Below, piece by piece: positions 4,583 to 16,851 of a DNA stretch of 64,000 nt. Within the stretch, counting starts at the first letter, position 1. Each line of letters opens with the position of its first letter. Source of the stretch: Psychrobacter submarinus (lineage in GTDB: Bacteria > Pseudomonadota > Gammaproteobacteria > Pseudomonadales > Moraxellaceae); contig NZ_CAJHBQ010000001.1 in NCBI RefSeq assembly GCF_904846685.1, positions 1,178,001 through 1,242,000 on the forward strand, given 5' to 3'. The notes beneath the pieces are model-generated. The model was given only the letters and a program-made list of their open reading frames with translations, ran no database searches and was not told the DNA's origin. Both the position numbers and the translations under genes were made by a program.

Positions 4583-4617
4583 AAAAAGCCAATACGCTAT
4601 CCACGTATTGGCTTTTT
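4583..4617. terminator. Bidirectional terminator between the lipoprotein gene and trxC
   Basis: AAAAAGCCAATACG pairs with CGTATTGGCTTTTT around a 7-base loop. Runs of A before and T after the stem let it serve the plus-strand lipoprotein gene and the minus-strand trxC. Confidence 0.85.
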
Positions 4618-4653: not shown

Positions 4654-5091
4654 CTATCCTTGCAAGCTTTGCACCCACTGCACAATCTGATCTCTAGGCA
4701 GCGCTCCTGACTGGCGAGCGACTTCTTTCCCGCCTCTAAACGCCACCATCGTCGGTAGACTGCGAATGTTATAAGCCGCCGCTGCTTGCTCGTACTTGTC
4801 CGTTTGCAGCTTAGCAAACACCACTTGCGGCAGTTGCCCTGCCGCCTCTTTAAACTGCGGTGCCATCATCAAGCACGGCTGACACCAACTTGCCCAAAAG
4901 TCGATCACCGTCAACACTTCATTCTTTTGAATGACTTTATTTACCGTTTGCGCAGTTAGCTCCTGCGGGCTTGCAGTCAGTAAAGACTTGGCGCATTTAC
5001 CACAGTTGGGCGCTGCGCTAAGACGATCGTTTGGCAGACGATTGGTCGCTTGGCAATTGGGGCAAACGATATGTAAACTCTCAGTACTCAT
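4654..5091 (-). CDS. trxC: Thioredoxin 2 (TrxC), zinc-binding
   Basis: A 145-aa thioredoxin with an N-terminal zinc ribbon (C10, C13, C30, C33) and a thioredoxin fold carrying the active site W69-C70-Q71-P72-C73. The family norm is WCGPC, so the glycine is replaced by glutamine, which may shift redox potential. The cis-proline loop (SLPTM) is present. TrxC reduces disulfides in the cytoplasm and in E. coli belongs to the OxyR regulon. SD AAGGA precedes ATG 5091. It lies next to a group of sulfur genes transcribed in the same direction, which suggests a role in disulfide or persulfide reduction there (inference). Confidence 0.92.
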   Translation of the reverse strand: MSTESLHIVCPNCQATNRLPNDRLSAAPNCGKCAKSLLTASPQELTAQTVNKVIQKNEVLTVIDFWASWCQPCLMMAPQFKEAAGQLPQVVFAKLQTDKYEQAAAAYNIRSLPTMVAFRGGKEVARQSGALPRDQIVQWVQSLQG

Positions 5092-5192: not shown

Positions 5193-5813
5193 CTATAGCT
5201 TTTTCTTAGCCGAGCCGCTATAGACATAACTCATAGGCTTGGGTCCGGGTAAGTATTCCTCATTTAACTCCTCAAGAGTAAAACCGCCCGCTGTAATCAG
5301 TGCAGCAATATCACGGTCTAAATGACAGCCACCCGCCATAGGCTTCCATAGCGGTGTCAGACGGCGCTGCCAACGCTTGACGCTCGCATCAGGTGCAAGA
5401 CCATGCTCACAAAATAGCAGCCGACCTTCAGGTTTGAGTAGCCGCGCCATCTCTGTTAGCGCCGGTATCGGATCATCAATGCTACAAAGCGTAAAAGTCA
5501 TGACGATAGTATCAAAACGCGCGCGCTCTGCATCAATGCCATAGATATCCGCGGCGATAGTCTCGACAGGAATATCAATCTGCTTCGCCCGTTTATATGC
5601 CAACGTCTGCATTTGCGCCGCGGGATCAATTCCAATAATAGAAGTCACTTTACTGGCGTCATAAAATTCTAAATTAAGACCGCTACCGATGCCAATCTCT
5701 AGCACTTCCCCTATCGCTTGTGGCACAATGTTGGCGCGTGCCTTCATCACTTGACCCGTACCGCACGCCATATCGATCATCTTGGGTAATACATACTGCT
5801 GATAGATATTCAT
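5193..5813 (-). CDS. METTL7-like class I SAM-dependent methyltransferase
   Basis: 206 aa. SAM motif I is VLEIGIGSGLNLEFY at about residues 37-51, followed by IIGIDPA and FDTIVMTFTLCSIDDP. After the fourth strand comes LLFCEHGLAPDASVKRWQRR, then PLWKPMAGGCHLDRD. This EH-G-A…W…P.W….GC.L.R layout is that of METTL7/TMT1-type methyltransferases, whose human members methylate small thiols and H2S. Older annotation would call it UbiE/Coq5-like. ATG 5813 has SD AAGGA. It runs in the same direction as the DUF2892 gene and persulfide dioxygenase, 110 bases downstream of the former. Thiol methylation is an inference from family resemblance and neighbours. Confidence 0.72.
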   Translation of the reverse strand: MNIYQQYVLPKMIDMACGTGQVMKARANIVPQAIGEVLEIGIGSGLNLEFYDASKVTSIIGIDPAAQMQTLAYKRAKQIDIPVETIAADIYGIDAERARFDTIVMTFTLCSIDDPIPALTEMARLLKPEGRLLFCEHGLAPDASVKRWQRRLTPLWKPMAGGCHLDRDIAALITAGGFTLEELNEEYLPGPKPMSYVYSGSAKKKL

Positions 5814-5923
5814 AGATTTTTCCTTATATGAGGGTTATCAACAATCATATAATTATAATCTATACCTTTACCATTACTGTATGGTTGATAGCTTATGAAT
5901 ACCGCAGATGAATAAGACTATAA

Positions 5924-6106
5924 CTATGCCTTACAAGTATTGATGCCCAGCAAGGAATAGAGCACGCAAGAACGGAATAAACCGGTAAGCAGGGGTATCA
6001 AACCAATAACGCCCCATAAGCTTTGGTAATAAAACCCTAACGCAATAATGACTACACCTGCGATGATACGTATCGTTCTATCGGTACGACCCACATTGAT
6101 TTTCAT
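5924..6106 (-). CDS. DUF2892 (YgaP-like) inner-membrane protein
   Basis: 60 aa, starting MKINVGRTDRTIRII, the classic DUF2892 opening, with two hydrophobic segments at about residues 12-30 and 32-50 and a C-terminal cysteine-containing tail (INTCKA). In YgaP this domain is the membrane anchor of a rhodanese. Here it is free-standing, 38 bases downstream of the persulfide dioxygenase gene, so it is probably cotranscribed. SD AAGGAG lies before ATG 6106. Confidence 0.85.
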   Translation of the reverse strand: MKINVGRTDRTIRIIAGVVIIALGFYYQSLWGVIGLIPLLTGLFRSCVLYSLLGINTCKA

Positions 6107-6144
6107 AACTTACTCCTTAAGATAATAAAATAGATATGACGACG

Positions 6145-7011
6145 CTATAGCGAATTGATAGGTACTTTTAGATAGCGAACGCCATTGGCCTCAGGTTCCG
6201 GAAACCGCCCGGCGTCAATATTGACCTGTACTGACGGAATAATTAACCTTGGCATGGCAAGGGTGGCATCACGGCGCTCACGCATCTGCACAAACTCCGC
6301 TTCATTGATACCGTCTTTAACATGAATATTAGCAAGCTTTTGCGCAGCTACGGTGGTACTAGGACAATGCTGGCGGCCTTGACTAGGATAGTCATGACAC
6401 AGATAAATTACCGTATCCTCGGGTAGCGACAGCAGCTTTTGGATAGAGTGATACAGCGTCTTGGCATCGCCGCCTGGGAAATCACAACGAGCCGTGCCCA
6501 CGTCTGGGGCGAAGATAGTATCACCGACAAACACCACGCTCTTTTCATTATCCGTAGCCACATAAGCCATATCTGCAGGTGTGTGCCCTGGTACATGCAT
6601 CACGGTAATGGCAATATCACCCAAAGTCAGAACCGTCGCTTCATCGGTCAAGATATCGAACTGGCTGGCATCGGTGCGAAAGCTCGTATCGAAGTTATAG
6701 ACTTGCTTAAATATCTTTTGTACTTCAGTGATATATTTACCGATAACCAACTGGCCGCCAAGCTCATCTTTGACATGAATGGCCGCTGACATATGATCAG
6801 CATGCGCATGAGTCTCGATAATATAGACCAGCTGCCAGTTCTGCTCGCGTACAAACTCAAGCACTTCATCGATGCTATCTGTGCTGGTCCTCCCCGACTT
6901 GGGATCAAAGTCCAATACCGGATCGATAATAGCGCAGAGCTGCTGCGCGCTATCTGCTAAGACATGAGTATAAGTTTCGGTATCTTGATGTAAAAAAGAA
7001 TGTACTTGCAT
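6145..7011 (-). CDS. ETHE1/Blh-type persulfide dioxygenase (MBL-fold hydrolase)
   Basis: 288 aa, metallo-beta-lactamase fold, a non-heme iron enzyme that oxidises glutathione persulfide to sulfite. Metal motif THAHADH is at about residues 68-74, then HVPGHTPADMAY, a FVGDTIFAPDVG strand and YLCHDYPSQG as later ligands. The C-terminal part (MPRLIIPSVQVNIDAG) is typical of the bacterial Blh/ETHE1 group. I chose ATG 7011 (MQVHSFLHQDTE) because GAGGTAAG stands just before it; the frame remains open 28 codons upstream into AT-rich DNA without an SD. It is divergent from the ArsR-type regulator, the arrangement known from bigR loci. Confidence 0.9.
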   Translation of the reverse strand: MQVHSFLHQDTETYTHVLADSAQQLCAIIDPVLDFDPKSGRTSTDSIDEVLEFVREQNWQLVYIIETHAHADHMSAAIHVKDELGGQLVIGKYITEVQKIFKQVYNFDTSFRTDASQFDILTDEATVLTLGDIAITVMHVPGHTPADMAYVATDNEKSVVFVGDTIFAPDVGTARCDFPGGDAKTLYHSIQKLLSLPEDTVIYLCHDYPSQGRQHCPSTTVAAQKLANIHVKDGINEAEFVQMRERRDATLAMPRLIIPSVQVNIDAGRFPEPEANGVRYLKVPINSL

Positions 7012-7251
7012 GCTTACCTCGTTTATTGATGATTCGTTAAAAGCTGATTGTTTATTATTTTTATAACGCTTAGCTCTATACCGGTAATATAACATCTATA
7101 CTACTATTTATAAATTTATATAATGTAATTTATGATAATATAGTTTATTATAAAGTGTCTTAGCTGATTAATGTTAGAATATAGATAATCAATCTTTGAT
7201 AATGGCTCAATTTATATCAATAAGATAATCGTGATATCCCAAGGAGATTAC
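7012..7251. promoter_or_regulatory. Divergent control region between persulfide dioxygenase and ArsR regulator
   Basis: 240 bases, very AT-rich around 7085-7165 with overlapping A/T dyads (for example TTTATAAATTTATATAA near 7109 and TTTATTATAAAG near 7144). ArsR-family repressors of the BigR type bind AT-rich palindromes in exactly this position. No single operator can be fixed by eye. Confidence 0.4.
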
Positions 7252-7623
7252 TTGACTACTTTTACCTTAGATAAGAGGTCATCGACCCATACAGCGGACG
7301 ATACCACGCAGGATTTGGCAGCGATTGACTTAGCCAAACAAATGCGGCAGTCTTCACAGCAAGCCAGCCAGCTACTCAAGTCGCTATCGCACCCCGATCG
7401 CTTATTGCTGCTATGCCAGTTGACCCAAGGCGAGTACTGCGTAAGCGAGCTTGAGACGTTGGTCGGTGTCGGTCAACCAAGCCTATCGCAGCAGCTTGGC
7501 ATCTTGCGTAAAGACGAGCTAGTGGCGACGCGCCGCGAAGGTAAGCAGATTTACTACCGTATCGCCAGCGACGATGCTCTGGCAGTACTGCAGCTGCTAT
7601 ATGAGCGCTTTTGTGCCAAATAG
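7252..7623 (+). CDS. ArsR-family regulator, BigR/SqrR-like persulfide sensor
   Basis: 123 aa winged-helix repressor. The core KSLSHPDRLLLLCQLTQGEY is followed by the recognition helix region VGQPSLSQQLGILR and the wing LVATRREGKQIYYRI. Cysteines sit in LCQL, EYCV and the C-terminal FCAK. A pair formed by the EYCV and FCAK cysteines matches the two sensing cysteines of BigR/SqrR, which form a tetrasulfide with persulfide. The start is best placed at TTG 7252 because AAGGAGATT at 7241-7249 is a good SD for it; a GTG at 7231 lies upstream of that SD. It probably autoregulates and represses the dioxygenase operon. Confidence 0.82.
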   Translation: MTTFTLDKRSSTHTADDTTQDLAAIDLAKQMRQSSQQASQLLKSLSHPDRLLLLCQLTQGEYCVSELETLVGVGQPSLSQQLGILRKDELVATRREGKQIYYRIASDDALAVLQLLYERFCAK

Positions 7624-7712
7624 CTTTGAGAGTATGAATGAACGCTAAGCTCTTTGTCGCTCCCATTTGCCACTGTATAAGCAACACTGTATTAGGATAA
7701 TGGCGTACTGAT

Positions 7713-9422
7713 ATGGCCTCTATTGCCACTCGTCTCATACCCGCTTGGCTGCGTCACTATTCGTTTGCCGCCCTGCCTGCTGATGTGATTGCCGGACTGG
7801 TAGTCGGCATATTGGTTATTCCGCAGAGCTTAGGTTATGCGGTGCTCGCCGGCCTGCCCCCTGTGTATGGTCTGTACGCGGCTATCGTGCCCGTTATCGT
7901 CTACGCGTGGATCGGCTCGAGCAATGTACAAGCGGTCGGCCCGGTGGCGATCACTGCGATTATGACCGCGAGCGCTTTGAGCACTTATGGTGATCAAGGG
8001 GCGGAGCAATATGTGCTTATGGCAAGCCTGCTCGCCCTCATGGTAGGCGCGTTATTATGGATCGCAGGCAGGCTTAAGCTTGGCTGGATTATGCAGTTTA
8101 TTAGCCGCGGGGTCTCCGCAGGCTTCATCAGCGGCGCAGCAGTACTCATCTTTGTCAGTCAGCTCAAATACCTCACCGCCATCCCAGTCACTGGTAATAG
8201 CTTGATCGGCTACTTGTCAAGCATACAGCAGTTCGCGCAGCAGCTACACCCGCTAACATTATTGATCGGTGTCATCTCCTTTGTATTACTAGTCGCCAAC
8301 CGTTATGGCGGCAAGTGGCTTTGGCGCTCTTGGCTCTCGGCTAGGCAGGCGAAATGGGCGGAGCGCTTGTTTCCGCTTATTTTATTAATAGTTGCTATTA
8401 TCTTGAGTGTCATCGGTCACTGGTCCGCACATAACGTCGCCACTATCGGTAGCATCCCGCATGGCCTGCCAAGCTTAACGCTACCGCATCTGCCAGACTG
8501 GCGTGAAGCGGCTAATCTGTTACCAACCGCAGGACTGATGGCGCTGATTGTCTTCGTCTCTAGTAGCTCAGTGGCCAGTACCTATGCCCGACTGCGCGAT
8601 GAGCGCTTCGATGCCAATCGCGAGCTGACCGGCTTGGGACTGGCGAATATTGCAGGTGGCCTGTTTCAGAGCTTTGCGGTAGCTGGCGGCTTTTCGCGCA
8701 CAGCTATCAATGCCGACTCAGGCGCTAGGACGCAACTGGCAAGCTTTGTCACCGTAGCCGTTATGGTCGCAGCTTTGCTATTTTTTGGTGATGTGCTGGC
8801 GCCATTGCCTTATGCGATTCTTGGCGCTATCATCATGGCCTCTATTATCGGGCTAATAGATATCGCAACCTTAAAATCGGCTTGGCAGCGCGATCGCTTA
8901 GATGCCGCGAGCTTTATCGCCGCTTTTGCAGGGGTGTTGATATTTGGTCTTAATACCGGTCTAGTCATCGGCCTAATGGTGTCTTTTGCTAGTCTAATTT
9001 GGCAGTCGAGTCATCCGCACGTGGCTATCGTTGGGCAATTGGCGGAGACTGGACACTTTCGCAATATTCATCGTCATAGCGTCGTCACTTATGAGCATCT
9101 ATTGATGATACGTATCGATGAGAGTTTATTCTTTGGTAACACCGACTCTATCCATCGCCGCATTCTGCAAGCGACCAAGGACTATAGCGACGCCCGTGAG
9201 ATTATCCTGATTATGTCGGCGGTCAATCATATTGACCTTACCGCGCAAGAGATGCTGATTACCTTAAATAGAGAGCTTGCCGCTGATGATAAGCATCTGC
9301 ATTTTAGCTTTATCAAAGGGCCTGTAATGGATAATATTGAGCATACGCCACTGATTACTGAGCTGTCAGGGCAAGTGTTTTTGAGTACCAATGCGGCGGT
9401 AAACGCGCTAAAAGATCTGTAA
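7713..9422 (+). CDS. SulP/SLC26-family anion transporter
   Basis: 569 aa. The membrane part opens with the SulP signature region (ADVIAGLVVGILVIPQSLGY) and continues with about 12 hydrophobic segments to about residue 430. A conserved GLANIAGGLFQSF stretch and a C-terminal STAS domain (about 440-560) are present. Members move sulfate, bicarbonate or other anions. It is 89 bases downstream of the ArsR gene and likely in its operon. Persulfide dioxygenase yields sulfite, so a role in sulfite or sulfate movement is plausible; direction and substrate are not shown by the sequence. An IS5 element begins 20 bases after the stop. Confidence 0.88.
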   Translation: MASIATRLIPAWLRHYSFAALPADVIAGLVVGILVIPQSLGYAVLAGLPPVYGLYAAIVPVIVYAWIGSSNVQAVGPVAITAIMTASALSTYGDQGAEQYVLMASLLALMVGALLWIAGRLKLGWIMQFISRGVSAGFISGAAVLIFVSQLKYLTAIPVTGNSLIGYLSSIQQFAQQLHPLTLLIGVISFVLLVANRYGGKWLWRSWLSARQAKWAERLFPLILLIVAIILSVIGHWSAHNVATIGSIPHGLPSLTLPHLPDWREAANLLPTAGLMALIVFVSSSSVASTYARLRDERFDANRELTGLGLANIAGGLFQSFAVAGGFSRTAINADSGARTQLASFVTVAVMVAALLFFGDVLAPLPYAILGAIIMASIIGLIDIATLKSAWQRDRLDAASFIAAFAGVLIFGLNTGLVIGLMVSFASLIWQSSHPHVAIVGQLAETGHFRNIHRHSVVTYEHLLMIRIDESLFFGNTDSIHRRILQATKDYSDAREIILIMSAVNHIDLTAQEMLITLNRELAADDKHLHFSFIKGPVMDNIEHTPLITELSGQVFLSTNAAVNALKDL

Positions 9423-9458
9423 TCATTCAGTTTTTTAGTAACAGACCTCTTGCAAAAG

Positions 9459-9902
9459 TCATAGGTTAAGCTCGGAATTAATGATACCAGCAAACAGCTT
9501 CATTCTAAGATCATAGCGCTGACGACGGTTGCGATATTTATGAGCCACGATTTTAAACAACTTGATTAAGCCTATTTTGTGCTCAACCACAATACGGAAC
9601 TTTGCCAGATAGTGATTGGCCTGTTTGCATATCTCCAGTAACTGACCACCACGTGGCTTTTTAAAAGGGGTGAAGGTTTGCTTATGTAGCTTTGCTATAC
9701 CTTGATAGCCACTATCTGCTAGTAATTTAGCATTGTCAGGAAGCCAATCAGGACAAGTATCTTTATAGAGCTTAAAATCGTGGATTGACCCTTTGCAGGT
9801 TTGCACATCAAGTATCAAGCCGGTTTGCCAATGGACGATAACCTGCGCTTTTAAGGTGTGTTGTTTTTTCTTGCCGCTGTAGTAGTCGCTTTGGTTTTTT
9901 TT
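9459..9902 (-). CDS. IS5 transposase, C-terminal frame
   Basis: This frame has no start of its own and continues the transposase after a -1 shift. From 9902 it reads KKNQSDYYSGKKKQHTLKAQ, the conserved IS5 region, then the second catalytic aspartate in LLADSGYQG and the catalytic glutamate in FRIVVEHKIGLIK. It ends AGIINSELNL 16 bases inside the terminal repeat. The run of eight A (T at 9895-9902 on the plus strand) is the switch point. Either a programmed -1 shift on A-AAA-AAA or a one-base deletion explains it. Confidence 0.8.
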   Translation of the reverse strand, partial: KKNQSDYYSGKKKQHTLKAQVIVHWQTGLILDVQTCKGSIHDFKLYKDTCPDWLPDNAKLLADSGYQGIAKLHKQTFTPFKKPRGGQLLEICKQANHYLAKFRIVVEHKIGLIKLFKIVAHKYRNRRQRYDLRMKLFAGIINSELNL

Positions 9903-10291
9903 GGACGCTCAATAGGGGTTTCGGTGGCATCGACGATGACGACTGACCAATTGATGTCCTCATCGACACGACTAGGCAGCTTTTTAGGCAATTCAAACTT
10001 GCCAGAGTCAATCAGTGTGTCTTCTACTTTACGAATGATACGGCTAGCAGAAGACTCATGAATACCAAAGTCCATACTGATATGATAAAGCGTGCGGTAT
10101 TCACGCCAATAAGTCAGGGCTAGTAGTATCTGCTCCTTAAGACTGAGCACACTTGGTCTGCCTGATTTGGTCTTAGATGCTTCATGCTCTTGCATGGCAT
10201 CAAGCATCTCATAAAAGGTGGCTTTATGAATGCCAGTGTAGCGTTTAAAACCAGCGTTACTTTGTTTGAGTAGCTTATCTATGTTTGGCAT
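9851..10291 (-). CDS. IS5 transposase, N-terminal frame
   Basis: 146 aa starting MPNIDKLLKQ, with an HTH-like segment (SLKEQILLALTYWREYRTLY, then GIHESSASRIIRKVE) and the first catalytic aspartate in VVIVDATETPIERPKK. After RPKK the frame continues out of phase (TKATTTAARKNNTP) and stops, while the conserved continuation is in the -1 frame. Alone it lacks two of the three DDE residues and would not be a transposase, though it may act as a regulator as in other two-frame IS elements. Confidence 0.8.
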   Translation of the reverse strand: MPNIDKLLKQSNAGFKRYTGIHKATFYEMLDAMQEHEASKTKSGRPSVLSLKEQILLALTYWREYRTLYHISMDFGIHESSASRIIRKVEDTLIDSGKFELPKKLPSRVDEDINWSVVIVDATETPIERPKKTKATTTAARKNNTP

Positions 10292-10484
10292 GGTTCCTAG
10301 ACAGTTATGAATGTTTCAGTTATTGTAAAATTCTCTGCTACTTTTGCAAGAGGTCTAATGGTGATACTTTATTGCTATTATAGTCTTATATCTTATATTG
10401 CATATTATTTGACAATACACCGTTACTTACGTTACTTACCACGTTTAGCCTTATTCAACTTTATCTAGATAACCGACTGAAATT

Positions 10485-10811
10485 ATGACTGACAATCTTA
10501 CGATTTATAAGCAAATATACCCATCGCAATGCGCGAAACTTGCCCAGCTTGGCTATCGCTCAGTCATCAATATTCGCCCTGATGATGAACATGTCAGCCA
10601 GCCGACAAGCCTTGATTTAGCAAGTGCTAGTGAGCAAGCTAATTTGGCTTATGAGTATCTGCCATTCGATGATGAGCGTCTAAGTACGCTGACCGTCGAG
10701 CAGTTCGCGCGCTTTTATCATGACTGCCCCAAGCCGATATTGATGTTTTGCGGCACGGGCGCACGCGCCAAACTCTTATACCAGAGCGCTTTGATGCAAG
10801 GTCTACTATAA
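10485..10811 (+). CDS. DUF442 (TIGR01244-type) sulfurtransferase/phosphatase-like protein, copy 1
   Basis: 108 aa. It has the opening YPSQCAKLAQLGYRSVINIRP and the P-loop FCGTGARAKLLYQ (C-x4-R), a rhodanese/phosphatase-like fold of the DUF442 family. In Blh proteins of bigR loci this domain is fused to a persulfide dioxygenase; here it is free. It shares layout with the neighbour at 10931 (IN.RPD.E…QPTS.D), so the two are tandem paralogues. The P-loop is less canonical than in copy 2. It was probably part of the SulP operon before the IS5 insertion. Confidence 0.8.
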   Translation: MTDNLTIYKQIYPSQCAKLAQLGYRSVINIRPDDEHVSQPTSLDLASASEQANLAYEYLPFDDERLSTLTVEQFARFYHDCPKPILMFCGTGARAKLLYQSALMQGLL

Positions 10812-10930
10812 CCGTTACATAGCGTATCTTTTATTCTAACGCTATTCATCCTACTCTTTACCCTGCTTATTGACTATTTTATTCCTTAAACCTTTCAACC
10901 TTTAATATCGACAATAAAAAAGGAGCTCGC

Positions 10931-11263
10931 ATGAGCCACCAAATCAGTATTACCGGTCAAATTACGCCGGACCAAGTCCCTATGATCGCCGAAAACGGCT
11001 TTAAAACCATTATCAATAACCGTCCTGATGGCGAAGAACCTAACCAACCGACCAGCGCTGATATTGAGGCCGCTGCAAAGGAGGCAGGACTGGCCTATAA
11101 AGAGATCTCGTTTGCCGGTAGTGAGCTCAATCAAAACCATGTCGAAGAGTTTGCCGACTTTTTTAATCAGGCCGAGCAGCCGATCTTAATATTCTGCCGT
11201 ACTGGCAATCGCTCAACCGGCATTTATGAAGCGGCAAAGCAGATGGATTTATTAGATGATTGA
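10931..11263 (+). CDS. DUF442 (TIGR01244-type) sulfurtransferase/phosphatase-like protein, copy 2
   Basis: 110 aa. It opens ISITGQITPDQVPMIAENGF and carries NNRPDGEEPNQPTSADI and the P-loop FCRTGNRSTG, the canonical CRTGxRS loop of the family. An SD AAGGAG is placed before ATG 10931. It lies 119 bases after copy 1, with a terminator 35 bases downstream. It likely carries sulfane sulfur on the loop cysteine and supplies or receives persulfide in the neighbouring pathway (inference from family and locus). Confidence 0.85.
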   Translation: MSHQISITGQITPDQVPMIAENGFKTIINNRPDGEEPNQPTSADIEAAAKEAGLAYKEISFAGSELNQNHVEEFADFFNQAEQPILIFCRTGNRSTGIYEAAKQMDLLDD

Positions 11264-11394: not shown

Positions 11395-13770
11395 TTAACT
11401 GACTTCTCTGACTGCATAAAGGTGTTCTTGAAATTTAACAAAGGTCTCTCGAATCGACTTAATATCGCCAAGCTCTCTTTTTGCGTCGGCGATGGCTTGG
11501 TATTTGAGCTCTAATAAGTCTGGAAGCTTGGCATCATCGAGCTCACTCACCCCTTGCTCCACATACTGCTCTAACACAAAATTTAAAAAGTCCTGCTGGT
11601 TTTTGCTGTAGTCGTGCAAATAAATTTTGGCTTTATCCGCGCGCGTGACTCTAGGCACGAGATCCTTGTGATAAGCGACATAGCTTAAGACATCAAACAA
11701 ATCGCTGTCTTCACCATGTATCAGGTGTTGTAAGTCTTTTAATTGAGAGTCGGTATAGCCTTTTTCACTCAAGTCGGTCAGTAGCTTGCGTCTGGTACTT
11801 GGCAGGCTCCAAATTTTACGTAGCTCATCTTCATTATGAAAAAATGCCGGTAAGTCGTCAAAGAGCTGCTCGATAAACTCTAGCGCTGATATCGGCGTGC
11901 CTGAGGGACTCCAAAACGAGGTCTTGATCATAGAGTCGATTTCGCGCGTTTTGTGATCAGACAGCGTTACTTTGATCATCTTGCGTGGCGCGATTTCACA
12001 GACGCAAGGGATATTGCCACATTCGATACATACTTCGGGTTCTGGTTTTTCACAGACGCAAGGTCGCTCGCCGCATATATTGCAGGGTCTTGGACCGCCA
12101 CCTTCATCTTCAGGCTCGATAGGTTCACCGTCCCATTCAGGGTCTTTAAAGTGATCATGAGCATCGACAAAGTCGTAAATCGTAAAGTAATCTTTACCCT
12201 CAAACAAGCGCGTGCCACGACCGACGATTTGTTTGAATTCCACCATAGAGTTAACAGGGCGCATGAGGACGATGTTTCTGATCTCTGGCGCATCCACCCC
12301 TGTACTGAGCTTTTGTGAGGTGGTCAAAATAGTGGGGATGCTCTTTTCGTTATCTTGAAAGTCGCGTAGATGGCGCTCGCCGATTTTGCCATCATCAGCG
12401 GTGACTCGGTGGCAGTAGTTGGTGCTGCGACTCGTAGCATATTGATTGATCAAATCTCTGATAGCAGCAGCATGAATTTGGGTCGCACAAAAGACCAGGG
12501 TTTTTTGGTTTTGATTGATTAGACTCATAAACAGCTTGACGCGGTACTCTTCTCGCGCTTTGATTTCGATGACTCTATTGAAGTCGGCCTCAACATATTC
12601 TCGCCCCTCTTCAATATCGCCCTCTACCGTGTCATCGGAGGTATAGGTATAGTCATCAAGGGTGGTGGCGATCTCTTTGACCTTAAACGGGGTCAAAAAC
12701 CCATCATTAATGCCCTCTTTTAACTTGTAGCTATAGACAGGCTCGCCAAAATAGTCATAGGTATCGGCATTGACGTCACGCTTTGGGGTAGCGGTTAGTC
12801 CGAGCTGCACGGCAGGCGAGAAGTATTCCATAATCGCGCGCCATGAGCTCTCGTCATTGGCGCCGCCGCGATGACACTCATCGATGATAATACAGTCAAA
12901 GAAGTCTGGTGGATAGTCGCCAAAGTACGGTGAGTCGTCAGGGCCGCTCATAAAGGTCTGAAAAATGGTAAAAAACACGCTGCCGTTCTTGGGGATGCGC
13001 CCTGTTTTTTTGATCTCGCTAGGTTTGATACGCACTAAGGCGTCTTCATCAAAGGCATTAAAGGCGTTAAAGGCTTGGTCGGCGAGTATGTTGCGGTCGG
13101 CCAAAAACAGGATGCGCGGGCGTCTTAAGCCATCGCGCTTTAGGTTCCATTTGGCATGAAACAGCTTCCATGCAATCTGAAAGGCGATGGCGGTTTTGCC
13201 AGTACCAGTCGCTAGAGTGAGCAAGATTCTGTCTTGCTTGGCGGCGATGGCGTCCAGCACTTTGGCAATGGCGTTTTGCTGATAGTAGCGCGGTTGCCAC
13301 GTGCCGCCGCGGTCTTCGAAGGGAATGGCAAATAAGCGCTGTTGCCAGTGAGTTATCTCCAGCTGCTCAGTGTCTACAGGCGTCGGATAAGTCATCTCCC
13401 ACAGCTCATCTGGCGTAGGAAATGTTAAGACATCACCCTCCACCCCTTGCTGCATATCGACGCTATAAATCTGTACGCCATTGGTGCAGTAGGTGAAGCG
13501 AATATTTAGGCGCTCAGCATAGTCTTTGGCTTGCCCGAGCCCTTGGGTGTAATAGTCGTCTCTTTTTTTGGCCTCAATCACGCCGATCTGTCGGTTTTTG
13601 TACTCCAGCACGTAGTCGGCAAATAAGGCATTGGCGCGGCGGCCTTGACCAATCAGGCGACCCTTAGTGATGGGAAACTCCAAACGCAAACGGCTGTCCT
13701 CGACCACGCCCCAGCCTGCAGCGCGTAGAGCGGGTTCGATGAGGTCATGTTTGGTCTGCGCTTCGTTCAT
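11395..13770 (-). CDS. hsdR: Type I restriction enzyme R subunit (HsdR)
   Basis: 791 aa. An N-terminal nuclease domain carries the PD-(D/E)xK-like run FADYVLEYKNRQIGVIEAKK at about residues 50-70. The helicase motor has Walker A ATGTGKTAIAF (K about 192), the DECH box at 297-300 (IIIDECHRGG), a LGLTATP motif and VGRGTRLF. After the motor comes a cysteine cluster (CNICGERPCVC, then CIECGNIPCVC) that looks like two small metal-binding knuckles, then an EcoEI-type C-terminal domain. It translocates DNA and cleaves it when HsdMS finds unmethylated sites. It is last gene of the hsdM-hsdS-(AlbA_2)-hsdR row, and the frame is intact. Confidence 0.93.
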   Translation of the reverse strand: MNEAQTKHDLIEPALRAAGWGVVEDSRLRLEFPITKGRLIGQGRRANALFADYVLEYKNRQIGVIEAKKRDDYYTQGLGQAKDYAERLNIRFTYCTNGVQIYSVDMQQGVEGDVLTFPTPDELWEMTYPTPVDTEQLEITHWQQRLFAIPFEDRGGTWQPRYYQQNAIAKVLDAIAAKQDRILLTLATGTGKTAIAFQIAWKLFHAKWNLKRDGLRRPRILFLADRNILADQAFNAFNAFDEDALVRIKPSEIKKTGRIPKNGSVFFTIFQTFMSGPDDSPYFGDYPPDFFDCIIIDECHRGGANDESSWRAIMEYFSPAVQLGLTATPKRDVNADTYDYFGEPVYSYKLKEGINDGFLTPFKVKEIATTLDDYTYTSDDTVEGDIEEGREYVEADFNRVIEIKAREEYRVKLFMSLINQNQKTLVFCATQIHAAAIRDLINQYATSRSTNYCHRVTADDGKIGERHLRDFQDNEKSIPTILTTSQKLSTGVDAPEIRNIVLMRPVNSMVEFKQIVGRGTRLFEGKDYFTIYDFVDAHDHFKDPEWDGEPIEPEDEGGGPRPCNICGERPCVCEKPEPEVCIECGNIPCVCEIAPRKMIKVTLSDHKTREIDSMIKTSFWSPSGTPISALEFIEQLFDDLPAFFHNEDELRKIWSLPSTRRKLLTDLSEKGYTDSQLKDLQHLIHGEDSDLFDVLSYVAYHKDLVPRVTRADKAKIYLHDYSKNQQDFLNFVLEQYVEQGVSELDDAKLPDLLELKYQAIADAKRELGDIKSIRETFVKFQEHLYAVREVS

Positions 13771-13868
13771 AGTATTTCCATCAAATAGCCATCAAAAAGC
13801 AATCTCTTGCTATCACAGGGCTTAGCTACTTCAATTGTTGTATTTATCAAATAACCATCAAATAAGAT

Positions 13869-14525
13869 TTAAGCCCAAAAAGGAATATAACTTCTATGTT
13901 TTCTTGAGTTGCTAGTAGGGTCTTCATCTTTAATTAGCTCTGCTTCGTAGGTGTCTTTAATAATTCTAGAAGCAATAGCTGCATTTTTTGCCTCAATTTT
14001 AAACCGCTCTCTTAGGCTCTCATTACTCATTTTTTCATTTGAAACATACTTTAAACAAGCATGTTGGTAACAAGCTCTTATTTTCTCTTTCTTATCTAAG
14101 TTCTTTAATCCGCGATAACTATAAAGGGTGACTGTGGTTCTATGCTCTTGTACTTTTACCTGAATAGGTGGCAATTGGTACAGCTCGTTATAAAATATGA
14201 CTTTATCCAGTCCACTGCCTTTTTCTTCACAAAAACCCATTCGTCTCATAATATCAGCAATAGTGTCATTTCTTGAGATATAAGAATCGATAAACCTATC
14301 TGGAGTAATTAAAGGATCTCCAGGATTTGATATCTCTATCCTATCTTGAAAGATTTCTATCATAGGAAACCCTTTAACAGAAAAATCCTGATGAATTAAT
14401 GCGTTTGCAATTAATTCTCTGATGGCAATCTCTGGGTACATACGAGAATCTTGACGTAATACCTTTCCTATCTCTTCATTTGCAGGAAGCTGACTATAGT
14501 CTATTAAAAATAAAACTGTCATCAA
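13869..14525 (-). pseudogene. AlbA_2/HATPase_c_4 ATP-binding protein, C-terminal remnant
   Basis: 218 codons corresponding to the ATP-binding and winged-helix half of AlbA_2 proteins that often sit between hsdS and hsdR. Visible motifs are IAIRELIANALIHQDFS (the N box of a GHKL ATPase), IEIFQDRIEISNPGDP, CEEKGSGLDKVIF and the family's typical end YIPFWA. The N-terminal AlbA_2 domain is absent. Its first residues are instead found in frame-disrupted form at 14613-14702, with a family B repeat between. The start at 14525 is arbitrary because upstream sequence is repeat DNA. The gene is most likely dead, though a truncated ATPase could still be made. Confidence 0.8.
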
Positions 14526-14532
14526 TTCAAAT

Positions 14533-14602
14533 GCGCTACTGGTATAAGTTTTTCTTGCGTGCTGCTATCACAGAGGCTGCGGAAAATTCACTCCAGTAGC
14601 GC
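14533..14602 (-). repeat. Family B palindromic repeat, copy 1 (70 bp)
   Basis: It starts GCGCTACTGG and ends CCAGTAGCGC, with similarity between the arms for about 20 bases. It matches 57901-57979 and 59889-59970 on the opposite strand, sharing TGAATTT near one end and AGCAGCACGCA in the middle. It lies exactly between the two remnants of the AlbA_2 gene. Confidence 0.78.
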
Positions 14603-14612
14603 TATAACACTT

Positions 14613-14702
14613 TTAAATTGAGTTTACTATATTAACCCATTCACTCTCATAAGGCTGTTTTACTAGTTCATCTAATAAGGCTTTTAGTTGCATTGTATTC
14701 AT
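14613..14702 (-). pseudogene. AlbA_2 protein, N-terminal remnant (29 codons)
   Basis: ATG 14702, 15 bases after the hsdS stop, opens a frame reading LKALLDELVKQPYESEWV, the first helix and strand of an AlbA_2 domain. The usual continuation EFKHN is lost, and the frame ends at TAA 14613 after NIVNSI. The position directly after hsdS and before the C-terminal part shows that both belonged to one gene with the middle deleted. Confidence 0.75.
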
Positions 14703-14717
14703 AAGTAAAACACTGAT

Positions 14718-15058
14718 TTAATGAGTAGGGTTTGGCTCGTTGCAGGTCAACTTACCAGCAAAGGCTTGTTCTAACAGGGACTTTTTAAGGTCTTCGAGGT
14801 TGGTTAGTTTTTGTTGGTATTTGATAATAAGTTCTTCATTGTAATCAAGTATTTTATCTAATTTAGCAACGATTTGTTCTTGTTCTTCGATTAATTTTGG
14901 AAAGTTTATAAAAGTATCATCAAATGAATAATTATTTATTTGAGGTACATTTGCTCCATTGCTTAATTCATTTAAATCAACTGTTTTAAACCAGAAATAT
15001 AAATAGTCAGAAGTTATATCTTTAGAAGGTATTAAAGCCATAGTATTTAAATCTACTA
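14718..15058 (-). pseudogene. hsdS: HsdS specificity subunit, C-terminal part (after IS630 insertion)
   Basis: The native codons read VDLNTMALIPSKD, the second half of the second target-recognition domain. The C-terminal conserved region follows (LIEEQEQIVAKLDKILDYNE with coiled-coil helix, then LKKSLLEQAFAGKL). Removing the IS630 element and one TA joins this in frame to the upstream part, giving KPT-I-VDLNT. Codons upstream of 15058 belong to the IS end. Without a start of its own it is probably not made, apart from a TTG in the IS terminus. Confidence 0.88.
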
Positions 15059-15061
15059 TAG

Positions 15062-15628
15062 TCAATGCACTACAAAAGAGTTATGTTTTGGATGAATATC
15101 ATAAAACAATTTAGATAAGTCATTTTCCATCCAACCTTGGCGTAAAAACTTCACTTGAGCCCACTTTTTCTCGATGGGATTTAAGTCAGGACTATAAGGA
15201 GGTAAGAATAATAGCCTGTGACCATGCCTGTTAAGCAGCTTTTGAACGCGCTTATGAAAGGCTGCATTATCCATAACGATTACACATTTTCTCTTAAGCT
15301 TTGGTATCAGCGTGAACTTGCACCAGTGATAGAAAATCTTTTTATTAATGTTGGTCTTTAAGCAATTGAGTGCAAACAGCGTTTTGCCATATAGTGCACC
15401 AATGACGTTGGTTCGATCTTTGGCTTGCCAATTGTAACTGCCAATGCAGGGGCTACCAATGGGTGCATAACCACAAGGACGCATCGTTTCACTCTCAAAC
15501 CCACTTTCGTCCATATAGACAATAGCAAAGCCTTGAGCAATGTAGTGGTTAAGCTTGGCTAGATAAGTCGCTCTTTTCACAGGACAGGCTTTGGGATGCT
15601 CAAGTGTCTTTTTTTTTGCTAACACCAA
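15062..15628 (-). CDS. IS630 transposase, catalytic frame
   Basis: 188 codons carrying all three catalytic positions: VYMDESGFE, VIMDNAAFHK and NPIEKKWAQVK. It overlaps the helix-turn-helix frame by 29 bases around a run of nine A (T at 15609-15617 on the plus strand). The joined protein would read GVSKKKTLEHPKACPVKRAT. Continuing from the first frame needs a +1 (or -2) shift at the A run. This may be slippage or a one-base insertion that inactivates the element. Confidence 0.85.
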   Translation of the reverse strand: MVLAKKKTLEHPKACPVKRATYLAKLNHYIAQGFAIVYMDESGFESETMRPCGYAPIGSPCIGSYNWQAKDRTNVIGALYGKTLFALNCLKTNINKKIFYHWCKFTLIPKLKRKCVIVMDNAAFHKRVQKLLNRHGHRLLFLPPYSPDLNPIEKKWAQVKFLRQGWMENDLSKLFYDIHPKHNSFVVH

Positions 15629-15905
15629 TACGCTTTAAGGCTTTACTGATGCCTGTTGGGCTACAATCAAAACGCTGTGCTCGCTCATAGTGATAATCGT
15701 CAGGGTGGTCTTTGACATCTTGAGCTAAGGCTTCATCCTCTATTTTGTAGGGCTTAATATATCGAGTGGTTTTACTATGAAGACGCTTTTTCCACTTCTG
15801 GATAGTCGTTGGACTGATATCATAGAAAACAGCAGCTTCAGCAAAGGTCATGCCCTCATCTAAGCTTTTTAAGACTTGTTTGCGATAATCTAGGGAGTAA
15901 GTCAT
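15600..15905 (-). CDS. IS630 transposase, N-terminal HTH frame
   Basis: 101 aa starting MTYSLDYRKQVLKSLDEG, with two HTH segments: FAEAAVFYDISPTTIQKWK and FDCSPTGISKALKRIGVS. It stops a few codons after a run of lysines encoded by nine A. The catalytic domain lies in the overlapping frame. Confidence 0.85.
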   Translation of the reverse strand: MTYSLDYRKQVLKSLDEGMTFAEAAVFYDISPTTIQKWKKRLHSKTTRYIKPYKIEDEALAQDVKDHPDDYHYERAQRFDCSPTGISKALKRIGVSKKKDT

Positions 15906-15966
15906 GGTTATTTATTGTGGTAGTCGTTTAGTTGATTTATTTTATAACATTTTTGTGGTCAGGTGA

Positions 15967-16851
15967 CTATATAGTAGGTTTTACAATCCTTCTTTTTTTA
16001 TTCGTTGCAATAGCTCCGCCTCTCTTTGGAAATATAACAGAACCTTTTGGAATAATTTGGCTTTCATTTATATCTTTAAAATTTACATATCGACTTGAGG
16101 ATACAATATCAACTTCATTTCCTGCGAGGTTCATATCACCTACTTTGGTATAAATAACCTCGCCAATGTCTTTTTCGATATCTTTTGATACAGTTTTACC
16201 ACTTTTTAATATAAGTACATCCTTAACAACCTCTCTTCGCCAACCCTCACCTTTTTGACTAAATATGTCATTTAGTTTCGATTGAAACAGCTCTTTGGCA
16301 TTTTCAATGTTTTTTTCGATGTTGGCTTGCGCCTGCTCTATCGCTGCAAACGCATCGTCAAGAATAGCGACGATTTGTTGTTGTTCTTCGATGGGTGGAA
16401 TTGGGATTTGAACAGAACTCACTAAAGCTATATTTAAATTTCTTACAGTAGAGCCTGCAGCCAATCTATCAAATTCTTTAAAAATATAAGGTGAGCCTAA
16501 CAAGTAATAAAGATAATCTTTATTGAGTAAATTATCTTCTTTCTCTTTTAAAACTAACCATCCATCATGAATACAACCTCTAGTCTTCATAATATAAGGT
16601 CTTCCAAAACTCATAGAATTAGATAGAAGAAAATCACCTTCTTCTACTAATCTTGTTTTGTGTAACCCATCTTTTGATATTTTTTGCTTAGTCTCATAAA
16701 TATATTTACTTGATGCTGTTGCATCACTAATTTTTATCCAATTTAAACCATCTTCTGATTCTGTAATATATTTTTTTATTGGACGAGGTGAACCACCTCT
16801 TGCAATTTCCATTACATTGCCTAACTTTTTTAACTCCCAACCCTTTTTCAT
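15967..16851 (-). pseudogene. hsdS: HsdS specificity subunit, N-terminal part (TRD1 plus central region)
   Basis: 294 aa. The first target-recognition domain covers about residues 1-150 and the central conserved coiled coil follows (PPIEEQQQIVAILDDAF through NAKELFQSKLNDIF, about 152-200). The start of the second target-recognition domain (from about 205) runs to KKRRIVKPTI, where the stop TAG is formed by the IS630 end. The ATG overlaps the hsdM stop by 4 bases (ATGA), so translation is coupled. A half HsdS with one recognition domain and one conserved region can in some systems pair with itself and work on a palindromic site, so this part may not be dead. Confidence 0.88.

Follow-up and report, generated by a model that had tools for sequence, protein, structure and literature searches.

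The locus examined here, in Psychrobacter submarinus, raises the question of whether a methyltransferase encoded among persulfide-detoxification genes belongs to the bacterial response to reactive sulfur. We analysed it within a window of 64,000 nucleotides (positions 1,178,001 to 1,242,000 of contig NZ_CAJHBQ010000001.1). The earlier note had placed a persulfide dioxygenase (SDO), a DUF2892 protein, a BigR-like ArsR, a SulP transporter, two DUF442 proteins and the methyltransferase (MT) together, and profile or structure matches confirmed all of them (Table 1). It had listed neither trxC, which lies directly downstream of MT, nor an IS5-family element that separates sulP from the DUF442 genes and whose transposase is split over two minus-strand ORFs (9459–9818 and 9851–10291). 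The IS5 element was not seen in 29 named Psychrobacter cluster loci.

Table 1. Features of the locus, with positions counted from the first nucleotide of the window
Feature	Position	Strand	Evidence
Hairpin (15 bp) then T run, after trxC; likely terminator	4583..4617	-	Fold of the stretch 3′ of trxC
Thioredoxin TrxC, final gene of minus-strand run	4654..5091	-	NF008229, 129.3 bits (cut-off 125)
MT, class I SAM-dependent, TMT1/METTL7-like (Mdd-type) family, 206 aa	5193..5813	-	TMT1 profile, hhalign, AF2 model
DUF2892/YgaP-like transmembrane protein, 60 aa	5924..6106	-	Pfam PF11127, 79.4 bits
Persulfide dioxygenase (SDO), unfused SDO half of Blh	6145..7011	-	NF040641, 339 bits
Conserved AT-rich block upstream of dioxygenase; candidate BigR operator/promoter	7107..7128	-	Intergenic alignment of 17 Psychrobacter loci
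BigR-type ArsR repressor	7252..7623	+	PDB 3pqj, 94.7 bits, both Cys aligned
SulP-family anion transporter with STAS domain	7713..9422	+	TIGR00815, 390.3 bits (cut-off 380.45)
IS5-family element	9443..10356		Perfect 17-bp terminal inverted repeats
DUF442 sulfur-transferase-like protein, first copy	10485..10811	+	PF04273, 58.4 bits
DUF442 sulfur-transferase-like protein, second copy	10931..11263	+	PF04273, 90.4 bits

The dioxygenase gene is predicted to encode a persulfide dioxygenase by its SDO domain and its kinship to ETHE1. The match covers positions 143–423 of the NF040641 model, the SDO half of Blh, and, being an unfused half, the protein falls below the full-length Blh cut-off of 625; its other scores were 326.6 bits with PDB 4ysk, a structure deposited under the title ‘Beta-lactamase domain protein’, and 72.8 bits with ETHE1 4chl. 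As its start, ATG at 7011 was preferred over a longer ORF to 7095. With TIGR01244 (cut-off 85.85) the first DUF442 copy stayed under the threshold at 67.0 bits and the second passed it at 101.7 bits. The nearest solved relatives of the ArsR protein are BigR (3pqj) and the ArsR-family regulator 6o8k (87.7 bits), which we take to be SqrR; a cysteine stands at each of the two cysteine places aligned with both structures, bearing out the two candidate sensing cysteines of the earlier note. Since its score with the NCBIfam BigR equivalog NF040642 (112.9 bits) is under the cut-off of 155, we name it BigR-type rather than a BigR equivalog. Its likely start is TTG at 7252, with AAGGAG upstream, GTG at 7231 being a longer alternative. 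The block upstream of the dioxygenase gene, our candidate operator or promoter, is a single site in the window and the genome at ≤3 mismatches; with no second copy in either, a separate operator for MT was rejected. According to the available text of PMC5823870, BigR binds its own operon at the -10 region and is inactivated via Cys42/Cys108.

The family of MT was assessed by profiles in both directions. A TMT1 profile scored MT at 69.0 bits (E 6.8e-20), and the runner-up methyltransferase locus in the same genome (14 of its own PF08241 loci were scored) reached 23.0 bits. In reverse, an MT-family profile gave the TMT1 proteins (n = 4) 102–121 bits versus 47.5, and TMT1 was the reciprocal best profile match of MT among the methyltransferases tested. 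Profile–profile comparison of MT and TMT1 by hhalign gave 99.9% (E 4.5e-35, 153 columns). The UbiE model, which the earlier note had suggested searching alongside METTL7/TMT1, returned 52.4 bits (TIGR01934, curated cut-off 158), and the UbiE label was rejected, as were BioC (TIGR02072, 40.2 bits versus 185), UbiG (TIGR01983, 30.1 bits versus 103) and, also by curated cut-offs, ArsM. The METTL7-like pattern reported in that note is real: a strict regular expression for it finds 154 of the 171 sequences in the family set (two of the 171 being copies of the window protein), and an alignment of 45 sequences, four of them TMT1 proteins, has 19 invariant columns, with E136, H137, Q149, P154, C163, L165 and R167 among them. 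MT carries the signature E-H ... Q ... P ... G-C-x-L-x-R, a feature picked from the noted pattern and the alignment. The E-H, Q, P, C, L and R residues are invariant in human TMT1A/TMT1B (METTL7A/B) and in MT; the human proteins are 24–26% identical to MT and bear an N-terminal extension. These comparisons support the assignment of MT as a relative of METTL7/TMT1. Long branches that meet, and forks left open, limit the tree of TMT1 with bacterial enzymes to placing the Psychrobacter clade, which fell among Pseudomonadaceae.

The AF2 model of MT (pLDDT 93.3) brings in a different chemistry. The closest solved fold to MT is a phospholipid N-methyltransferase, which counts against an S-methyltransferase, and MT matched the PE N-methyltransferase 8ys9 in the fold test; no TMT1 structure was among the 50 VIA-align matches listed, an absence that carries no inference. 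MT could be a phospholipid N-methyltransferase of the PmtA type, its location among sulfur genes being unrelated to its chemistry. However, the MT-family profile that ranks the four TMT1 proteins so highly gives 8ys9 69.2 bits (smaller profile), the 8ys9 match stops at position 139 with uncharacterised YcgJ scoring no worse (71.5), and the aligned region shows T, E and A in 8ys9 at the positions of E136, Q149 and W156, respectively. The PmtA label itself was rejected at 37.7 bits with the NCBIfam equivalog NF045882 (cut-off 390). Pseudomonas aeruginosa, for which one plasmid record holds a 65% relative, makes phosphatidylcholine only when choline is supplied, according to the available text of PMC3281885. 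Sulfur genes, moreover, adjoin MT in two lineages, and we consider a phospholipid substrate unlikely.

A close MT is carried by 36 of the 105 Psychrobacter genomes searched, about a third, and in all 36 it lies directly downstream of the dioxygenase gene, on the same strand and in the same slot. Of 20 MT-less loci sampled, 18 keep the cluster with the MT slot empty. Among the 29 named cluster loci with MT, trxC adjoins MT in every one and DUF2892 was detected in 12 (tblastn, E 1e-4). These counts support MT being fixed within the persulfide cluster of MT-bearing Psychrobacter, and the profile tests and synteny together exclude chance for the MT finding. On the cluster tree the presence of MT requires 7 changes, with at least 5 gains or losses forced by starred branches.

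The earlier note's expectation that relatives would be linked to sulfur genes held for the nearest ones and failed for most distant ones. In the Halopseudomonas group, the nearest outside relatives (64–70% identity), MT ends a sulfate/thiosulfate operon, cysP-cysT-cysW-cysA-MT, in all five loci with enough upstream DNA. Six other Pseudomonas loci had no cysP, and close relatives in Pseudomonas are located elsewhere, for example beside prp genes. Identity to relatives in groups f183 (Marinobacter) and f275 is 43–49%. For a protein to count as MddH, PMC13310141 asks for ≥40% identity and ≥70% coverage relative to a ratified MddH. A family-wide sulfur-gene link was rejected, with sulfur markers at 6 of 88 loci of wider relatives, hand-chosen from the matches, versus 6 of 60 controls placed some 60 kb off on those contigs. 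Each marker was one sequence, searched at E 1e-4; rhodanese, SoxA, cydAB and cysPTWA escaped this set and were added afterwards. The SDO marker accounts for five of the six control hits and two of the six test hits, and these may be ordinary metallo-beta-lactamase-fold proteins. Marker-free clustering of neighbours (111 loci versus 60) found no persulfide-gene family in seven or more loci; the commonest neighbour not in controls was cydA (9 versus 0). Single cases were rhodanese - MT - flavoprotein (L115), SoxA-like cytochrome - DUF442 - MT (L114) and ArsR - DUF2892 - SQR-III-like flavoprotein - ... - MT (L059). Fourteen plasmid loci, hand-picked from 211 plasmid records, had metal markers in 6, thiol-redox markers in 6 and sulfur markers in 3; a copper/metal-island reading was rejected given this hand-picked sample and metal markers in 1 of the 88 genome loci.

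The patchy presence of MT, with its forced gains or losses, the lack of sulfur enrichment around distant relatives and the scattered positions of close Pseudomonas relatives are what one would expect of a mobile accessory gene that has no part in sulfur stress, inserted at some time between SDO and trxC and retained there through synteny at the genus level. Against this stand the identical strand and slot in 36 of 36 genomes, the sister group's own arrangement, cysPTWA-MT, and a low dN (MT 0.11, SDO 0.09, TrxC 0.10, in the one pair tested, with dS saturated or incomputable), and we regard such a passenger as improbable.

The reciprocal profiles, hhalign and the invariant residues common to TMT1, together with the 36/36 linkage, the empty slots and the cysPTWA-MT operon of the nearest outside relatives, lead us to read the locus as a BigR-type reactive-sulfur detoxification cluster with a TMT1/Mdd-type S-methyltransferase built in and working as follows, to which we assign a probability of roughly 0.6. 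Persulfides would oxidise the BigR-type repressor and release it from the block in the bigR–dioxygenase intergenic region, switching on two gene runs: SDO - (DUF2892) - MT - trxC on the minus strand, and bigR - sulP - DUF442 - DUF442 on the plus strand. Sulfane sulfur would be moved by the DUF442 proteins and thioredoxin and converted to sulfite by SDO, and SulP, a candidate sulfite/sulfate exporter of presumed substrate and direction, would export the anion. MT would transfer the methyl group of SAM to H2S, and perhaps to methanethiol, yielding volatile MeSH/DMS. The MT substrate, co-transcription and the control of MT by BigR are what we infer here, and the arrangement suggests that sulfide is methylated as well as oxidised in MT-bearing Psychrobacter.

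MT could also be the S-methyltransferase of the cluster with a main substrate other than H2S, be it a persulfide or polysulfide, some other small thiol, or a thiol of foreign origin. Persulfides are what the cluster would sense and oxidise, one Mdd-like protein is inactive on H2S and MeSH (PMC12904073), and the available texts report that human TPMT, of another family, methylates di- and tetrasulfide (PMC13089183) and that human METTL7B methylates not only H2S but also alkyl thiols, captopril among them (PMC7921093). The characterised bacterial members in PMC12904073 nevertheless use H2S and MeSH, METTL7B does not accept glutathione or cysteine (PMC7921093, available text), and we judge a different main thiol unlikely.

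Acinetobacter baumannii belongs to the same bacterial family as Psychrobacter. Its yeeE-yedE-pdo2 operon likewise combines BigR with a persulfide dioxygenase but has other transporters, and the word ‘methyltransferase’ is absent from the available text of PMC7315123. The Xylella/Agrobacterium bigR operon (BigR, Blh, TauE) shares the two-cysteine repressor and the DUF442 and SDO activities, whereas in the Psychrobacter locus DUF442 and SDO are encoded separately, SulP takes the place of TauE, and trxC and MT are added (PMC5823870, available text). The mto-cluster of Methylophaga thiooxydans (mtoX, pdo, sqrB, sulP) also sets a persulfide dioxygenase and sulP beside methylated-sulfur metabolism, but in the opposite direction, with MeSH degraded by MtoX (PMC6548844, available text); our search for methanethiol oxidase (SBP56/MtoX) had no match in the Psychrobacter genome and was positive in 1 of 14 control genomes. 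Matches to methionine gamma-lyase in the genome were all under the curated cut-off. An SQR-III-like query, run with no positive control, gave no match, and nothing is concluded from this.

Bacterial methylation of H2S and MeSH by TMT1A/B-like enzymes is already published: MddH, MddM1 and MddM2 use both substrates and are sulfide- or MeSH-inducible (PMC12904073). MddH, the enzyme of Halomonas sp. EF61, resembles MT by published description in being UbiE-family, cytoplasmic, widespread in marine Gammaproteobacteria and similar to TMT1A/B; no report of it within a BigR locus was found in the available texts (PMC13360808, PMC12904073). The SAM-dependent MddM1 and MddM2 of Mycolicibacterium poriferae (210 and 204 aa) are similar to TMT1 and MddH, with mdd transcription induced by H2S and MeSH, but are mostly actinobacterial, and no BigR linkage was seen in their available description. 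We found no TMT1/Mdd-like methyltransferase in a BigR locus in the published literature. For mammals, methylation by TPMT has been proposed as an outlet that clears reactive sulfur beside SQOR/ETHE1 oxidation (PMC13089183, available text).

The physiological role of TMT1/Mdd enzymes has so far been argued from toxicity assays and induction. With a relative of these enzymes fixed in a persulfide-sensor locus, it can be asked in a clean genetic background whether H2S methylation belongs to the way bacteria respond to reactive sulfur; Psychrobacter species with MT and those lacking it form a natural experiment. We propose, tentatively and with less than even confidence, that one BigR-type sensor may switch on both oxidation to sulfite and SAM-dependent methylation, that Psychrobacter may be a sulfide-inducible source of methylated sulfur gas, and that TMT1 may be an old sulfide-defence family captured separately by bigR/SDO and cysPTWA. 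If true, this would join the literatures on bacterial volatile sulfur (MeSH/DMS) and on persulfide sensing.

The methyltransferase encoded in the window (MT, 206 aa) matches generic Pfam methyltransferase domains and reaches none of the curated NCBIfam models; identities as UbiE, BioC, UbiG, ArsM or PmtA were rejected, with scores far under the NCBIfam cut-offs. Using a profile built from 107 TMT1A/B sequences (the human METTL7A/B proteins), we obtained 69.0 bits (E 6.8e-20) for MT and 23.0 bits for the next-best protein among the ORFs of 14 PF08241 loci of its own genome. In the reverse test, a profile of the MT family (171 sequences, two being the window protein) gave four TMT1 proteins 102–121 bits and the next methyltransferase of the genome 47.5 bits, while direct profile–profile comparison of MT family and TMT1 gave 99.9% (E 4.5e-35), with the C-terminal signature falling inside the 153 aligned columns. 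The METTL7 motif that the earlier note had read in MT was confirmed: the 19 columns that are invariant across 45 aligned sequences, four of them TMT1, include E136, H137, Q149, P154, C163, L165 and R167.

MT lies in a minus-strand run, SDO (the persulfide dioxygenase gene)–DUF2892–MT–trxC, which ends at a hairpin and T run 3′ of trxC. The IS5-family element on the other side of the cluster encodes its transposase as two ORFs. In all 29 named cluster-bearing relatives (loci L002–L027, L029, L033 and L053) both DUF442 genes follow sulP at a distance of about 0.4 kb or less, and the element might uncouple DUF442 expression in the P. submarinus strain. Judged by eye from the ORF list, ORFs at window positions 11395–16851 resemble a type I restriction system, with large helicase-like and specificity-like subunits and a transposase-like ORF pair (15062–15905) between the specificity-like pieces.

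Features of the cluster, in window positions
Feature	Position	Strand	Basis or remark
trxC	4654-5091	-	ORF calls and domain models
methyltransferase MT	5193-5813	-	ORF calls and domain models
DUF2892/YgaP-like membrane protein, 60 aa	5924-6106	-	ORF calls and domain models
persulfide dioxygenase SDO	6145-7011	-	ORF calls and domain models
BigR-type ArsR	7252-7623	+	
SulP	7713-9422	+	
IS5-family element, perfect 17-bp ends	9443-10356		stands between sulP and the DUF442 genes
DUF442, first copy	10485-10811	+	
DUF442, second copy	10931-11263	+	

Among solved structures the ArsR protein is closest to BigR (3pqj, 94.7 bits), followed by another ArsR-family regulator (6o8k, 87.7 bits), presumably SqrR; both conserved cysteines of each structure align with cysteines in the window protein. 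We use the label 'BigR-type' because the protein scores 112.9 bits with the NCBIfam BigR model, under the cut-off of 155. An AT-rich block upstream of SDO, TTACATTATATAAATTNATAAA, is recognisable in an intergenic alignment of 17 Psychrobacter loci, including five that lack MT; with up to three mismatches allowed, it has a single occurrence in the window and a single one in the whole genome. BigR of Xylella and Agrobacterium reportedly recognises the -10 region of its own operon and is inactivated by a route involving Cys42 and Cys108 (PMC5823870). The block is a candidate operator.

The search of 105 Psychrobacter genomes gave a close MT (at least 68% identity) in 36, own genome counted. In all 36 it is the gene immediately 3′ of SDO and has the same orientation, with a gap of 41–599 bp; the SDO list for this count covered 49 of the 105 genomes, including all 36, and the two stop-separated SDO pieces of genome G049 were counted as one span. 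A second kind of MT (43–48% identity) is present in 12 other genomes (loci L092–L103) and in none of them directly downstream of SDO; weaker matches (37% identity or less) were set aside as belonging to other methyltransferases. SDO itself has a strong match (best E under 1e-50) in 100 of the 105 genomes; genome G097 is without one. From the 64 genomes with a strong SDO match and no close MT we hand-picked 20 loci, mainly on contig size. DUF442-DUF442-SulP and SDO-(DUF2892)-TrxC are kept with an empty MT slot in 18 of these, SDO stands alone in two, and a BigR match is present in 16. DUF2892 itself was detected in 12 of the 29 named MT-bearing cluster loci. On a tree of cluster proteins from 48 loci (30 with MT, 18 without), MT presence requires seven changes, at least five of them forced by starred branches, and none of 500 shuffles gave as low a number. 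Given this slot occupancy and these tree changes, MT is an accessory gene, gained or lost at a single place in the Psychrobacter cluster. SirB2, beyond trxC, is likewise syntenic, and part of the MT–SDO linkage is therefore inheritance. Between the window and L002, a single pair, dN is alike for MT (0.11), SDO (0.09) and TrxC (0.10), with dS saturated (2.1, 2.8) or not computable.

In the MT tree the Psychrobacter proteins form a single clade (96, starred) within a Pseudomonadaceae group, with Halopseudomonas nearest. In the Halopseudomonas group, MT is the last gene of a cysP-cysT-cysW-cysA-MT arrangement in all five loci with adequate upstream DNA (L028, L031, L032, L034 and L035, two of them titled Pseudomonas; MT identity 64–70%); in L030, L036, L037 and L055 the sequence starts too near MT for the upstream region to be read. 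For L028, CysP scores 502 bits, above the cut-off of 308, and CysA 489 bits with a cut-off of 502. Outside Psychrobacter, a sulfur role of MT is best supported by this operon, which is confined to one group. No cysP was found in six further Pseudomonas loci with 62–65% MT relatives (L038, L058 and L104–L107, the last four inferred to be Pseudomonas from group and tree). L058 is a P. aeruginosa megaplasmid, where the 65% relative has a DEAD-box helicase on one side and, on the other, a GntR regulator next to prp genes; none of the 12 annotated features shown is a sulfur gene.

Further out, the MT family was found in 84 of 244 genomes of the order, 28 of 369 of Gammaproteobacteria and 52 of 398 of the phylum (E up to 1e-30, own genome counted). 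None of the other genes of the window's cluster turned up in the remaining 27 of 56 named loci, of which two are second-kind Psychrobacter loci and several have short flanks. Among 88 MT loci that we selected from the wider matches, thiol-redox markers occurred in three (0 of 60 control places) and metal markers in one (0 of 60). Because sulfur markers were found at 6 of the 88 loci versus 6 of the 60 controls, the MT family has no general sulfur linkage; an association of MT relatives with sulfur genes holds for the Halopseudomonas group, with its cysPTWA-MT operon, and fails for most of the wider relatives. Three single loci are suggestive: L115 (peroxiredoxin, rhodanese, MT, flavoprotein), L114 (SoxA-like cytochrome, DUF442, MT) and L059 (ArsR, DUF2892, SQR-III-like flavoprotein, DUF2892, DUF302, DsbA-like, MT), the L059 flavoprotein scoring far under the cut-off of the SQR-III model.

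Two other neighbourhoods were observed. cydA lies within 6.5 kb at 9 of the 88 MT loci and 0 of the 60 controls: in seven loci of group f183, Marinobacter as judged by protein names (L109, L171, L175, L176, L181, L185 and L186), the MT relative is divergent from cydA (bd-type oxidase), and cydA was likewise noted near MT in L173 and L177. The A. baumannii cydAB genes are described as sulfide-induced and refractory to H2S (PMC7315123). Plasmid MT relatives of 36–48% identity (L060, L063–L065 and L067–L070, hand-picked, the controls being genome places only) stand amid copper/heavy-metal and thiol-disulfide genes, namely those for P-type ATPases, CcdA, TlpA, SCO and cupredoxin. Two of these plasmid loci also carry an isoprenylcysteine carboxylmethyltransferase-family gene near MT, a family to which we take MddA to belong.

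Bacterial H2S/MeSH S-methyltransferases are known: PMC12904073 describes MddM1 and MddM2, induction of mdd genes by H2S or MeSH, and an extended similarity common to MddM1, MddM2, MddH, TMT1A and TMT1B, with a shared ancestor possible. MddH of Halomonas sp. EF61 is summarised as widespread in marine bacteria (PMC13360808), and by the 40% rule of PMC13310141 MT could plausibly count as an MddH. For human TPMT, polysulfide methylation has been proposed as a clearance route alongside oxidation (PMC13089183). The BigR operons in the available parts of PMC5823870 (Blh/TauE) and PMC7315123 (yeeE-yedE-pdo2) include no S-methyltransferase; the pdo-sqr-sulP-mtoX cluster, as far as PMC6548844 presents it in its accessible part, is without a TMT1/Mdd-type enzyme, and none appears in that of PMC12423496. 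Among the papers listed from the open-licence literature, titles and abstract openings showed no report joining such an enzyme with a BigR locus, which is weak evidence of absence.

Collectively, the gene content, the family of MT and its placement are solid. The earlier note had proposed that MT adds a methylation branch to a bacterial persulfide response; of this, the genes and their arrangement stand, and we infer, as the best-supported explanation, that oxidation and methylation would work as a joint pathway under a BigR-type sensor. The cluster is a fresh variation on known things rather than a new kind of system.
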